A stretch of DNA of 64,000 nucleotides from an uncultured Poribacteria bacterium (GTDB taxonomy: Bacteria > Poribacteria > WGA-4E > WGA-3G), in assembly GCA_951828515.1 (NCBI GenBank), contig OX639992.1:2644217-2708216 (forward strand). The letters run 5' to 3'. Below, in pieces: positions 55,539 to 63,584 of this stretch. The translations under genes and the position numbers were made by a program. The notes beneath the pieces were generated by a model. The model was not told where the DNA came from. It saw only the letters and a list, made by a program, of their open reading frames with translations, and made no database searches. Numbering within the stretch: position 1 is the stretch's first letter; each line of letters begins with the position of its first letter.

Positions 55539-56018
55539 ATGGCGAGATCACTCACCGATGGCGAAATGGTTAATGGAAAGAAGCACGGGTATTGGATTAC
55601 CTATTACGCCAATGGATTCAAGCGAAGTGAAGGTAACTACATTCACGGTAAGAAGGACGGACCTTGGATCAATTACCACAAAAATGGGAACAAGTCGGGC
55701 GAATCCTCCTTCCGCGATGGAAAATACGAAGGACCCTGTTTCACCTACTATGAAAATGGAAACCTCAGATCCAGCGGGGTCTTTCCGAAACATGTCGGCA
55801 AATCCTACGATGGCAGAAAGGAGGGTCCCTTTTACAATTACGAAGAGGATGGTGAGACTGTGTGGCTAATTATAACCTACAAAAGAGGCGGCAGCCGTGC
55901 GAAACCAGATGAATATCCGCTCGGTGTCTGCGACGTTTGCGGCGAAGTCAAACGTTTGGCGTGGAAGGAGACTTGTCCGAAATGTGGTGCTGAACTGGGT
56001 GATAGAACACCCTGCTAA
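55539..56018 (+). CDS. MORN-repeat protein with C-terminal zinc ribbon 1
   Basis: 159 residues, no signal. Five to six MORN-like turns (GKKHGYWITYYANGFKRSEG, GKKDGPWINYHKNGNKSGE, GKYEGPCFTYYENGNLRSSG, GRKEGPFYNYEEDG) and a four-Cys ribbon CDVCG...CPKCG at the end. MORN repeats often bind lipids or proteins; this one is of unknown role. A paralogue lies at 57530 with the same repeat-derived leader. Its last codons run into a transposon-like remnant. Confidence 0.8.
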   Translation: MARSLTDGEMVNGKKHGYWITYYANGFKRSEGNYIHGKKDGPWINYHKNGNKSGESSFRDGKYEGPCFTYYENGNLRSSGVFPKHVGKSYDGRKEGPFYNYEEDGETVWLIITYKRGGSRAKPDEYPLGVCDVCGEVKRLAWKETCPKCGAELGDRTPC

Positions 56019-56430
56019 AGCATGGGTGCTTCTGAAGAAAGTCATCAGAAGTTTCGTGCGATCAACGACCACTGCTTGCGATATGCAAGACTTCTGTAGC
56101 CTCCGGCAACAGACACTATCCTGACTGCGTGCTAAAAAGCACCTTACGAAAAGTTTTGAGTCGTCTGTTTCAAACGGGATTCAGCATGACCTGTCTTTCC
56201 CTACTAACGACTGTAAGCTACGACTTTCAGGATTTTAGATATTAGAGCTTTACACTATAGGAATCTAACCTTAGAGGTGCGTAACAACCCTCTATAGCAA
56301 CCTTACACTCTAAGAGTATTGTAGCATTTTTGACAGGATTGGTCAAGGAAAACCTCGTCTCATTCACGAAAGCGAGACTGTATCCCCGCACGAAAGCACG
56401 GGGTTTTAGTCTCGGAAGGTTTGATAATAT
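56019..56430. mobile_element. Possible IS200/IS605-derived remnant
   Basis: No gene is supported. A nested palindrome, CGAGACT...CCCCG...CGGGG...AGTCTCG (56373-56414), resembles IS200/IS605 end structures; CACCCTGCTAAAGCATGGGTG near 56010 could be the other end. No transposase remains. Confidence 0.35.
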
Positions 56431-56458
56431 TGCCCTATAAATAGATTTGCGGTATAAT
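56430..56458 (+). promoter_or_regulatory. Sigma-70-type promoter of the LamG gene
   Basis: TTGCCC, 17-nt spacer, TATAAT (56453-56458); the ATG at 56607 is about 150 nt downstream. Confidence 0.5.
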
Positions 56459-56606
56459 CTCGACAACAGAAAAAGGTAGCAAATCTGATCCAGTTGTTAT
56501 GCGAGTTAACATCTATTGGAAGATGTTCCGCACGACACAACTTGCTTTGTCTATCTTTGTGTGAATATTTTCCCAACTGAATGCATCGTATAAAAAAGGG
56601 GTAAAA

Positions 56607-57398
56607 ATGATGAGAGTTATAGGTGCTTTTATCGCGGTGACGGTTCTCTTTATTGCAGGAATATGGATTCAGGAAAGCAGGTCGGAAATTGACCCAGAAA
56701 CCCTTATGGGAATGTGGCTCTTTGATCAGGGAAAAGGTAATGCGGTTCAGGACTCCTCGGCGAACGGGAACGATGGAGAAATTGTTGATGCTAAACGGGT
56801 CGAAGGAAAGGAAGGCATGGGAATCGAATTTGATGGAGCAAGTCATGTGGTGATTCCAGCGAGTAAGACCACCGATGACTTTCTCGATGGATTTACGTAT
56901 CTGCTCTGGGCAAAACCGCTTCGTAACCCTTCGGGTCCGCACGTTCGACTCATAGAAAGGGATTGGCACAATCCAAACATTCTTATCGGTCCAACCGACT
57001 TTTATGGCAGTTTCCTCAAAGGCGGAATAGATAATAGTCAAATCCGGGGTGGCACTTGGGAGATGGATGAGTGGAGTTTTGTCGCCTTAACACACGACGG
57101 TAAGACGCTTATCCTCTATGTTGATGGCGAAGCCGTTGGGGATTTAGGGGTCGGAAAACCGGATTTCAGTCAGGACCACGATGGCGGCTCAATCTGGTTA
57201 ACCCGCTGGAAAGGTGGAGCGGGGTGGGACTTTGCGGGGGTCCTTGACGAAGTCGCTATCTTCAATACTGCTCTCAGCGAAGACGATCTCCGTGACGTTA
57301 TGGAAAAAGGACTTGAGAAAGCACTGTCCGTTTCCCCAGTTGATAGATTGACAACAACTTGGGGACACATCAAGGGGATAGCAGTCAGCGGTCAGTAG
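56607..57398 (+). CDS. Secreted LamG/concanavalin-like protein
   Basis: 263 residues. Signal-like start (1-22), then a LamG-type jelly roll (about 33-230): GMWLFDQGKGNAVQDSSANGNDG, GIEFDGASHVVIPAS, FTYLLWAKPL, WSFVALTHDGKTLILYVDG and LDEVAIFNTALSEDDLRDVM. The tail RLTTTWGHIKGIAVSGQ shares LTTTWG with the TolB-type protein at 48366; the last codons are translated short-repeat DNA. Likely sugar- or surface-binding; partner unknown. Confidence 0.8.
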   Translation: MMRVIGAFIAVTVLFIAGIWIQESRSEIDPETLMGMWLFDQGKGNAVQDSSANGNDGEIVDAKRVEGKEGMGIEFDGASHVVIPASKTTDDFLDGFTYLLWAKPLRNPSGPHVRLIERDWHNPNILIGPTDFYGSFLKGGIDNSQIRGGTWEMDEWSFVALTHDGKTLILYVDGEAVGDLGVGKPDFSQDHDGGSIWLTRWKGGAGWDFAGVLDEVAIFNTALSEDDLRDVMEKGLEKALSVSPVDRLTTTWGHIKGIAVSGQ

Positions 57399-57504
57399 TC
57401 AAAAGAATAGCGGTCAGTTGTCAGGAAGACTTTGTAGCAGGAACGGTTTTCGTTTAAGCTGTACGCCCTCTTTACTGACGGCTGATTGCTGATAACTGAT
57501 TGCT

Positions 57505-57529
57505 TTTAAAACCGCAAGGAAAAGTTAAA
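57505..57529 (+). repeat. SD-carrying repeat end before MORN gene 2
   Basis: AAACCGCAAGGAAAAGTTAA just before ATG at 57530; a TGATTGCTGATAACTGATTG short repeat lies directly upstream. Confidence 0.7.
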
Positions 57530-57997
57530 ATGGCAAAATCACTTACAGATGGTGAAATGCTCAATGGCAAGAAGCACGGCTATTGGACCACCTATTACGC
57601 GAACGGATTTAAGCGCAGTGAAGGTCGCTACATTGAAGGGAAAAAAGAGGGGCTTTGGATTCAATATCACAAGAACGGCAACAAAGCAAGCGAAGCCTCC
57701 TTCCGTGATGGCAAAAACGAAGGCGAGTATATATGCTATTACGAGAACGGAAACCGCAAATGGGGCGGTCCCTATCGAAAACATGATGGCAGCTCCGCTG
57801 ATGGTAGAAAAGAAGGGGTCTGGCTCTGTTACGAAGAGGATGGCGAGACGGTGTGGCGCATCATCACCTACAAGAAAGGTGGGAGTCGCGCGAAACCGGA
57901 TGAGTTTCCGCTGGGTGTCTGCGATGTTTGCGGTGAAGGCAGACGTTCAACGTGGAAGGGTACCTGTCCGCAATGTGGGACAGGGGTTTCTGACTAA
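57530..57997 (+). CDS. MORN-repeat protein with C-terminal zinc ribbon 2
   Basis: 155 residues, paralogue of 55539: GKKHGYWTTYYANGFKRSEG, GKKEGLWIQYHKNGNKASE, DGKNEGEYICYYENGN, GRKEGVWLCYEEDG and CDVCG...CPQCG. I start at 57530; the longer frame to 57500 is repeat sequence. The two MORN genes lie 1.5 kb apart with the LamG gene and a transposon-like remnant between them, so a duplication with later insertions is likely. Confidence 0.8.
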   Translation: MAKSLTDGEMLNGKKHGYWTTYYANGFKRSEGRYIEGKKEGLWIQYHKNGNKASEASFRDGKNEGEYICYYENGNRKWGGPYRKHDGSSADGRKEGVWLCYEEDGETVWRIITYKKGGSRAKPDEFPLGVCDVCGEGRRSTWKGTCPQCGTGVSD

Positions 57998-60830: not shown

Positions 60831-61613
60831 ATGAAATCGCGCCGAATACCTCTCGTATGGATGGTATCACTCGTCATACACGTCTGCCTCGCAGTCGTTG
60901 TAGGGTACATTGCCATCTCATCTCAAGCACAGAAAGCACAGGATACTATTGATTTAAGTTTCTTCATCGTTACACCACCACAAGCAGCGAAAAGAGATGT
61001 TATTCAGAAACCGGTCGCTGTAACAACCCCTGTTCCAGATTTGAGAGTCGTTCCACAAACTGAGACAACGCAGCGTCGGACAACAGTCGCACGTGCAGTG
61101 AGATCGTCCGCAGCTGCAGCACCTGCGGCGTCCCTAAGTGCGAGCGCACCAGCCGCACCAAGAGGACAGCAAATCAAAATTCCGAGTGCGTCTCCCGTGA
61201 TCCAGCATACTGCGCAACCGCTATCAACGGCTGTAAAACTACCGACAGCATCAGATGGATTACCCACCGCAGGCTTGCCCAGTGGCGGGGCAGTGGCGGA
61301 TGGTATAGGCACAGGTATTGGTGACGGTTTAGGTAGCGGGACCGGGCGTGGGACTTTCGGTTCAGGATCCGATCTTGGGCAAGGACGAACACAGGGTAAT
61401 GGCAGTCTGAATTCACTCGTAGCAGGGGCAGGTGCCGCAAATATTAGCGCATCCCTGTCGAATGTCGAAAAGAACATGGTTCTCGGTAATGGTGTCCCAG
61501 AGCTTCCGAAGGGAAGCCCAGGGGCAATCATTCAAGGTCGGGGAACAGAGATTATTGGTAGCCTTAACCTCGTCCGTCTCGACGACCCATTGCATCCGAA
61601 CCTCGATATATGA
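60831..61613 (+). CDS. DUF4159-like protein, part before an in-frame TGA
   Basis: 260 residues. A TonB-like N-terminal anchor (VSLVIHVCLAVVVGYIAI), a Pro/Ala/Ser-rich linker, a Gly-rich stretch (GIGTGIGDGLGSGTGRG) and the start of a DUF4159-like domain (SLNLVRLDDPLHPNLDI). The frame then meets TGA at 61611. The same frame stays open for another 264 codons, so this is best seen as the first part of one longer protein. GGAGGAG precedes the ATG. Confidence 0.65.
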   Translation: MKSRRIPLVWMVSLVIHVCLAVVVGYIAISSQAQKAQDTIDLSFFIVTPPQAAKRDVIQKPVAVTTPVPDLRVVPQTETTQRRTTVARAVRSSAAAAPAASLSASAPAAPRGQQIKIPSASPVIQHTAQPLSTAVKLPTASDGLPTAGLPSGGAVADGIGTGIGDGLGSGTGRGTFGSGSDLGQGRTQGNGSLNSLVAGAGAANISASLSNVEKNMVLGNGVPELPKGSPGAIIQGRGTEIIGSLNLVRLDDPLHPNLDI

Positions 61614-61656
61614 GGCAGCGGCATCGGACATCTCCGATTCGGGGCAGGTCTGCCCT
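61611..61656 (+). other. In-frame TGA with two downstream hairpins (possible recoding site)
   Basis: After TGA comes ATCGGA-CATC-TCCGAT (61622-61637) and then GGGCAGGTCTGCCC (61642-61655), whose loop has GGTC 33 nt after the TGA. GCAGGTCTGC is also the apical sequence of the E. coli fdhF SECIS. A plain nonsense change (for example from TGG) or a sequencing error is equally possible. Confidence 0.4.
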
Positions 61657-61700
61657 ATTTAGTCAAGTCGCTGAATGCAGAAACAGGTGTCAAAACCCAA

Positions 61701-62405
61701 ATGGTTGACGCAGTCCAAATTACGGATGCAGCCTTTTTTGAGTCACCCATTGTCTTTATGGAGCCGGTTCCCAAATCCTCAGTGCAACTCCAGAACGGAC
61801 TGATAGGTGGCAATATCTGGAATGTAAGTGGGGATCGCCCTTCCTTCGGTTATACCGATCGGGAGGCGCAGCGCATCCGCGAATATGTCATCAATCGCGG
61901 TGGGTTTATCTATATGCCGACACACGGAAACACGGAATTGGCGATGCAACCTGCGCTGCGGATCTTGCGCCAAATTCTTCCTGAATATCATCTCGTGACT
62001 ATCCCTCAAGATCATGAGATTTACAACAGTTTCTATGAGTTGAGCGGACCGCTCCGATTTCCTGTTCGGAAAATTGGGTCTACCGTTCTCCATCACGGTC
62101 CCTATCGTCAGTTGCAAGGTGTATTCATTGATGATCGGTTGGCTGTTCTTGTTGATACGGAAGCGATGATACATGTGATGGATGGTGCCGTCCAGAAACC
62201 TTTCTTCGGTCACTATCAGGATCGGAATAGAATCTTAGATGAATTCGCCCCAGCCGCCGCACGACAACTCATTAACGTCGTCGTCTATGCGGTGACACAC
62301 GGAAGCATCTCGGATTACAGCAACTATATTCCTGCGAGTGCCCTCGCCGATGGCGAGATAGATAGTGCCCCGAAAAAGTTACCTAATGCTGCCAGTCGGT
62401 TGTAG
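61701..62405 (+). CDS. DUF4159-like protein, part after the in-frame TGA
   Basis: From its first ATG the frame has 234 residues, but the in-frame codons from 61614 also read as protein (GSGIGHLRFGAGLPYLVKSL). It continues the DUF4159-like domain: SFGYTDREAQRIREYVINRGGFIYMPTHG, LPEYHLVTIPQDHEIYNSFYEL, and ends in a helix. The ATG has no good SD, so independent translation is doubtful. The domain occurs in proteins next to MoxR/aerotolerance-type operons elsewhere; no such genes are here. Confidence 0.6.
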   Translation: MVDAVQITDAAFFESPIVFMEPVPKSSVQLQNGLIGGNIWNVSGDRPSFGYTDREAQRIREYVINRGGFIYMPTHGNTELAMQPALRILRQILPEYHLVTIPQDHEIYNSFYELSGPLRFPVRKIGSTVLHHGPYRQLQGVFIDDRLAVLVDTEAMIHVMDGAVQKPFFGHYQDRNRILDEFAPAAARQLINVVVYAVTHGSISDYSNYIPASALADGEIDSAPKKLPNAASRL

Positions 62406-62440: not shown

Positions 62441-62484
62441 AACAATAAGCCGCGTCAAAAGATTGACGCGGCTTATTGTTTTTT
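62441..62484 (+). terminator. Rho-independent terminator
   Basis: An 18-bp perfect stem AACAATAAGCCGCGTCAA / TTGACGCGGCTTATTGTT with an AAGA loop, followed by TTTT. It ends the DUF4159-like transcript. Confidence 0.9.
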
Positions 62485-62651: not shown

Positions 62652-62680
62652 TTGACAAATCGGGGTTAGATATGTATAAT
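62652..62680 (+). promoter_or_regulatory. Consensus sigma-70-type promoter
   Basis: TTGACA, 17 nt, TATAAT (62675-62680), 56 nt before the sulfurtransferase ATG. Both boxes are perfect consensus. Confidence 0.8.
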
Positions 62681-62735: not shown

Positions 62736-63584
62736 ATGGCTGATTACGCAAATTCTGATGTTTTGGTAAGTACGGAATGGGTTGCTGAGCACGGTGGTGA
62801 TGATGGCATCCGACTGCTTGAGGTCGATGTGGATACCTCAGCTTATGCTGAGGGACATATCGCTGGTTCGGTGGGACTCAATTGGCAGACACAATTGTGC
62901 GACCAAGTTCGACGCGATATCCTCACGAGAGAACAGTTCGAGGCACTCTGCAATGACAGCGGTATCGCTAACGATACCACTGTTATTTTTTATGGAGATA
63001 ACAATAACTGGTTCGCAACGTATGCTTTGTGGCAATTCCGCTATTACGGACACGATGAAAGTCTATTGAAAGTGATGAACGGTGGTCGTCAAAAATGGAT
63101 TGATGAAGGCAGAGAGCTTGTCACTGATGTCCCAGACCATTCCAGCACAGGATATCAAGCGAAATTCCCCGACGACAATGTCCGCGCTACAGCGGGTACG
63201 GTTAGTGACACATTAGGGCAAAGCGTTGTTAACCTTGTCGATGTTCGTTCACCTGCTGAGTTCACCGGCGAAGTTATCGCACCTCCCGGTATGAGCGAAA
63301 CCGCTCAACGCGGTGGACACATCCCCGGCGCAGCAAATATCCCGTGGGCAACAGCAGTCGCTGAAGACGGCACCTTTAAGTCTCACGACGAACTGCAAGC
63401 CATCTACGGCGGTGCAGGCGTTGATGAGAGCAAGGAAACAATCGCTTATTGCCGTATTGGTGAACGCTCATCGCATACCTGGTTTGTGCTGAAGTATCTA
63501 CTCGGTTATGAGAAGGTTCGCAACTACGATGGGAGTTGGACAGAATGGGGCAACCTCGTTGGAGCACCCATTGCACGCGACTAA
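62736..63584 (+). CDS. Thiosulfate/3-mercaptopyruvate sulfurtransferase (two rhodanese domains)
   Basis: 282 residues. Inactive-type N-terminal rhodanese domain (about 8-130; EVDVDTSAYAEGHIAGSVGLNW, VIFYGDNNNWFATYALWQF) and a catalytic C-terminal one (about 150-280; VDVRSPAEFTGEV, GGHIPGAANIPW, YCRIGERSSHTWFVLKYLLG). The Cys of CRIGERS is the persulfide carrier. It transfers sulfur to thiophilic acceptors such as cyanide or thiols. It stands alone behind a consensus promoter and after a terminator. Confidence 0.93.
   Translation: MADYANSDVLVSTEWVAEHGGDDGIRLLEVDVDTSAYAEGHIAGSVGLNWQTQLCDQVRRDILTREQFEALCNDSGIANDTTVIFYGDNNNWFATYALWQFRYYGHDESLLKVMNGGRQKWIDEGRELVTDVPDHSSTGYQAKFPDDNVRATAGTVSDTLGQSVVNLVDVRSPAEFTGEVIAPPGMSETAQRGGHIPGAANIPWATAVAEDGTFKSHDELQAIYGGAGVDESKETIAYCRIGERSSHTWFVLKYLLGYEKVRNYDGSWTEWGNLVGAPIARD

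Follow-up and report, generated by a model that had tools for sequence, protein, structure and literature searches.

Known bacterial selenoprotein genes of the bSECIS, SelB and tRNA-Sec type provide the closest described systems for the locus analyzed here. A 2026 inventory lists 119 prokaryotic selenoprotein families (PMC13188914, Table 1), and its bSECIS model calls for a UGA-to-loop spacing of 16-37 nt, a loop of 3-9 nt with G at its first two positions, a stem of 4-16 bp, and a minimum free energy of −7.5 kcal/mol or lower (PMC13188914). The present locus has in common with such genes an in-frame UGA, a bSECIS-conforming hairpin, Sec/Cys pairs among homologues, and a complete set of selA, selB, selC, and selD. 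It departs from the catalogued families in its domain, DUF4159 (PF13709), which has no entry among the 119 (PMC13188914, Table 1), and in lacking both a two-chalcogen motif (UxxC, CxxU, or similar) and any indication of a thioredoxin fold. DUF4159 was likewise not found in the accessible part of the deep-Sep account (PMC12013277), and no NCBIfam model matches the protein. A literature search returned no paper on DUF4159 and none that pairs a selenoprotein with Poribacteria.

The Poribacteria are uncultured and mostly sponge-associated. We conclude that the poribacterial gene represents a new family among a known kind of bacterial selenoproteins, with a SECIS layout that is unusual.

A DUF4159 gene with a conserved in-frame TGA

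The gene lies near the end of the window, by which we mean the whole 64,000-nt stretch of DNA that was analyzed, and comprises the following features.

60831 to 62405, + strand: complete gene for the 524-residue selenoprotein (Sec at 261), from ATG at 60831 to TAG at 62403-62405
61611 to 61613, + strand: TGA assigned to Sec, residue 261; TGA in 41 homologues, a Cys codon in 3, and nothing else
62444 to 62484, + strand: intrinsic terminator, a 15-bp stem followed by GTTTTTT (−23.0 kcal/mol), which a pattern scan missed

The original prediction, made from this sequence alone, pointed to a lone TGA at 61611 within a long open DUF4159 frame, and this proved accurate: it is the single in-frame stop of the frame 60831-62405 and is followed by 263 sense codons before the TAG. 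When the TGA is read as W, translation yields one continuous protein, and Pfam DUF4159 is matched at residues 338-487 (E = 1.4e-18; 67.6 bits against a curated cut-off of 25.9). The prediction was also right that TGA serves as a normal stop elsewhere in the window. Thirteen of the 39 window ORFs of at least 200 amino acids end in TGA, and after 12 of these stops the frame stays open for just 0 to 55 codons. TGA is thus an ordinary stop in this window, and the one at 61611 is an outlier. A reassignment of TGA (code 4 or 25) was not indicated in the window, where TGA still ends those 12 large ORFs. With its own terminator, the selenoprotein gene is a self-contained unit.

Conservation of the TGA was assessed across 85 genomes of the phylum. 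Exactly one TGA, at the same codon of a full-length frame, was present in 41 genes from 39 genomes (47-92% identity), of which 30 belong to the window's genus, 2 to another genus of the same family, and 7, with 9 genes, to a second family of the order. Three further genes, all from the second family, are free of the stop and have Cys at its position (TGC in G044; TGT in G041 and G045). Apart from these, no TGG or other sense codon was seen at the site in any readable subfamily member of the search, two genomes being unreadable there (G034, which has Ns, and G046, where the gene is truncated). The residue found in homologues, which had been singled out earlier as a point to check, is therefore the same TGA or Cys and never Trp. 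When patterns from the window protein were used for scanning, close relatives emerged in Poribacteria only, with all named records being Candidatus Poribacteria.

In a maximum-likelihood tree the Cys genes are nested at two places within the TGA clade; therefore, Sec would most simply be ancestral and have changed to Cys at least twice. The Cys genes still carry the SECIS sequence, either intact or partly decayed. Genome G044 holds a recent natural Sec-to-Cys pair in two adjacent paralogues (L065 3101-4711 and 7437-9041), one with Cys (TGC) and an intact SECIS and the other with TGA. Comparison of the window gene with seven homologues gave dN/dS values of 0.13-0.19 before the TGA and 0.08-0.15 after it, and the downstream value of about 0.1 indicates that the part after the TGA encodes a functional protein under purifying selection.

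Two hairpins downstream of the TGA

Two hairpins that had been claimed just after the TGA were both recovered, with the GGTC loop of the second located 33 nt from the TGA as proposed.

61623 to 61638, + strand: hairpin 1, ATCGGA-CATC-TCCGAT, proposed to act as a spacer; codons of the stem frozen, that of the loop free to vary
61642 to 61655, + strand: hairpin 2, GGGCA-GGTC-TGCCC, proposed SelB-binding apical hairpin of the SECIS; pairs kept, GGTC invariant, 10-mer shared with fdhF

Direct comparison further confirmed that GCAGGTCTGC is found in the Escherichia coli fdhF SECIS, in which the spacing is 18 nt. The two elements have an identical apical 10-mer, GCAGGUCUGC, with loop GGUC closed by GCA/UGC. 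Unlike the fdhF element, which has a bulged U in its upper stem, the window hairpin lacks this bulge, and an extra hairpin stands between the UGA and the SECIS hairpin. The fdhF-type spacing of about 18 nt is also absent, as the distance here is 33 nt and would come down to 17 nt only with hairpin 1 looped out. Considered as a 20-nt element, hairpin 2 (−9.4 kcal/mol, stem of 5-6 bp, loop GGUC) satisfies every bSECIS constraint of PMC13188914.

A hairpin on one sequence alone is weak evidence, because about 9% of the TGA triplets in the window (101/1177) are followed by one comparable to hairpin 2; the TGA at 61611 is the only one of them with the 10-mer. Single-sequence folding energy was unexceptional (z = −0.69), Rfam returned nothing above threshold near the gene, and a SECIS covariance model run over the genome gave no second confident site (next match, E = 5.9). 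It is the comparative data that put the structure far beyond chance. Across 26 distinct sequences, 98.7% of the pair cells of hairpin 1 and 100% of those of hairpin 2 (99.3% for both together) hold standard pairs, with the loop-closing pair of hairpin 1 broken in two sequences. Departures in this set were one-sided, all but two cells being G-U changes, and no pair in either helix had changed on both sides; the case for the SECIS structure thus rests on codon freezing and not on covariation.

Among 38 TGA homologues, the synonymous-diversity minimum of the whole gene falls at residues 259-279, where diversity is 0.35-0.40 times the mean matched for amino acid (p about 5e-5 by resampling). Codons ATC, CTC, CGA, GGG, GCA, GGT, CTG, and CCC, which make up the stems and the GGUC loop, show zero synonymous change in these homologues, and codon GGA of the same region shows almost none. 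The GGTC loop is invariant in 38/38 TGA sequences, although GGT could vary synonymously, whereas the hairpin-1 loop codon (CAT/CAC) and the junction codon (TTC/TTT) vary synonymously at normal levels. This pattern is what would be expected of an RNA structure and not of protein constraint.

We propose that the SECIS consists of an fdhF-like apical hairpin with loop GGUC and a second hairpin between it and the UGA. Hairpin 1 would take 16 nt out of the path, so that 33 nt may act like about 17 nt, near the 18 nt of fdhF. A refinement of this proposal, also compatible with Sec, is that hairpin 2 alone constitutes the SECIS and that hairpin 1 is incidental or protein-driven, leaving the effective spacing unshortened. 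The 33-nt spacing already lies in the 16-37 nt bSECIS range, and the broken loop-closing pair of hairpin 1 in two sequences fits this version. Against it, the hairpin-1 stem codons (ATC, CTC, CGA) are frozen wherever the residue is kept, while the loop codon drifts both synonymously and in amino acid. We consider the single-hairpin version plausible but somewhat improbable.

Selenocysteine machinery and other readings of the TGA

The original prediction had left selenocysteine as one of four options and named selA, selB, selC, and selD as genes to look for. All four are present in the genome, with scores of 594 bits for SelA (cut-off 268), 347.5 bits for SelB (cut-off 242), 78.1 bits for selC, the tRNA-Sec gene (cut-off 47), and 359 bits for SelD (cut-off 125); selC is adjacent to selB, just downstream of it. 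Across 60 relatives, the cut-offs were passed in 52 genomes for selC, 53 for SelB, 51 for SelA, and 54 for SelD. Together with homologues that have only TGA or Cys at the site, this machinery decides among the four in favor of selenocysteine.

SelD of the same genome (L107:1762, genome 4977761) itself has an in-frame TGA in the context CAG-U-ASK, followed by a short GCTC-CGGGT-GAGC hairpin. It serves as an internal positive control, and TGA-containing SelD is a known selenoprotein type that is probably mis-annotated in these genomes. Six same-genus assemblies without the DUF4159 gene (G002, G003, G010, G018, G019, and G025) keep the Sec machinery; the gene is therefore dispensable, and other selenoproteins must exist in these six genomes.

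Comparison of these genes and genomes, in the form of TGA conservation, Sec/Cys exchange, codon freezing, and Sec machinery, makes it nearly certain in our judgment that UGA 261 is decoded as Sec through a SECIS just downstream. In this mechanism SelB and tRNA-Sec would decode the UGA, directed by the SECIS, and we infer from the comparison that Sec is actually inserted.

Readthrough of the TGA, or its decoding by an ordinary tRNA such as that for Trp, would also give a longer protein, free of selenium, and would accommodate a frame that is open and conserved on both sides and continuous when TGA is read as W. We regard this as very improbable, as TGG appears in no homologue (only TGA, TGC, and TGT do), TGA ends 12 other large window ORFs in the ordinary way, the Sec machinery is complete, and codon freezing falls exactly over a hairpin of the SECIS model. 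Still less credible is a true stop, arising either as a nonsense mutation in a pseudogene or as the boundary of two genes, the second starting from ATG 61701, where a 234-amino-acid ORF does begin. Thirty-nine genomes have in common the TGA and the open frame after it, and dN/dS is about 0.1 both before and after the TGA. The codons from the TGA to 61701 are conserved as well, and each Cys homologue forms one protein with no interruption. Purifying selection on the downstream half excludes a nonsense mutation. A sequencing or assembly error at 61611, in favor of which nothing emerged, has a negligible chance and is excluded by the recurrence of the same TGA in 39 genome assemblies from many assembly projects, including further single-contig genomes such as G005, G021, G028, and G044.

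Protein layout, gene neighborhood, and possible role

The Sec-containing product, decoded at UGA 261 as proposed, would consist of one N-terminal transmembrane helix and, outside the cytoplasm, a DUF4159 domain joined to it by a long flexible linker.

60855 to 60920, + strand: N-terminal transmembrane segment, approximately residues 9-30, from hydropathy and a predicted helix at 8-31
60940 to 61480, + strand: low-complexity Pro/Ala/Gly-rich linker between the anchor and the C-terminal domain, from the translation and a pLDDT of about 25
61593 to 61652, + strand: subfamily-specific stretch HPNLDI-U-GSGIGHLRFGAGL, from alignments

Hydropathy peaks at 2.6 in the 19-residue stretch that starts at residue 6, and the linker would be extracytoplasmic. 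Two AlphaFold models, of the full length and of the C-terminal domain, were of low confidence (mean pLDDT 35 and 40), and the only solved relative found was Hoch_4089 (PDB 4i66; E = 4.9e-5). The C-terminal domain is shared with other DUF4159 proteins (PF13709), whose poribacterial members also have this layout of membrane anchor and linker. The Sec-bearing insert, on the other hand, occurs only in the window subfamily: the core around Sec in HPNLDI-U-GSGIGHLRFGAGL is missing from alignments of ordinary poribacterial DUF4159 paralogues. A further difference is a change from Cys to His at 365 and 448, positions at which ten ordinary poribacterial paralogues have an invariant Cys. These two residues and His255 are invariant in 41/41 compared. 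The sole Cys of the protein is residue 19, within the membrane segment, so that the domain has no conserved Cys and no resolving one. Taken together, these features suggest a membrane-anchored protein whose Sec residue lies in an insert specific to the lineage, within an extracytoplasmic domain. The arrangement that we infer, one Sec with His residues nearby, resembles a metal site or a peroxidase-like site, and Sec is probably the reactive residue or a metal ligand in a redox or metal-linked enzyme or sensor that acts outside the cytoplasm.

Downstream of the terminator lies a sulfurtransferase gene.

62652 to 62680, + strand: consensus promoter TTGACA-17-TATAAT for the rhodanese gene (12/12 matches)
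62736 to 63584, + strand: two-domain rhodanese (sulfurtransferase) gene, a syntenic neighbor and not part of the selenoprotein, which stays where the selenoprotein gene is absent

Because the rhodanese gene has its own consensus promoter, the two genes probably do not form one operon. Five genomes of the same genus that lack the selenoprotein gene retain rhodanese, and in three of these (G003, G010, and G019) it stands beside the same upstream DUF5916 gene, the selenoprotein gene being cleanly absent between them. As a functional partner rhodanese was rejected, given its own perfect promoter, the terminator in between, and its retention without the selenoprotein gene. Its orthologue in L032 has weak similarity (81.9 bits, cut-off 200) to ExtH of selenite/tellurite reduction operons. 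On the other side of the gene, window positions 55539-57997 encode repeated MORN-like small proteins (MARSLTDGEMVNGKKHGYWITYYANG).

In the second family (f4), the membrane segment and DUF4159 domain follow an ECF sigma module in one fused protein, with a Sec form in L074 and a Cys form in L068. Regions 2 and 4 of the sigma factor are fused in frame in the Sec form (L074:3439-5676), in the Cys form (L068:4714-7005), and in an insert-less form (L068:1232-3394). To our knowledge, selenocysteine is not known in any membrane-spanning ECF sigma factor of this kind. The fusion resembles membrane-spanning ECF sigma factors that are extended at the C terminus, ECF52 among them (PMC5826349); the window protein differs from these in having no sigma module. 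Since the sigma module is necessarily cytoplasmic and one membrane segment intervenes, the Sec domain should lie outside, and the role is most likely that of an envelope sensor or regulated enzyme. More speculatively, in a reading that is on balance unlikely as a whole, Sec with His255, His365, and His448 might be the reactive center or a metal ligand in a redox or metal sensor outside the cytoplasm, the sister-family ECF fusion might be a selenium-based transmembrane transcription switch, and the SECIS might consist of two hairpins, one of them setting the spacing.

These results extend the set of selenoprotein families to a domain for which no Sec-containing member had been listed. The proposed two-hairpin arrangement provides a clean test, set up by nature, of the idea that a hairpin acting as spacer can move a far-off SECIS into register. 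Genes of this type are split or truncated by automatic annotation, and other Sec proteins in such genomes may therefore be overlooked. For the family itself, the ECF sigma fusion suggests a role in sensing.
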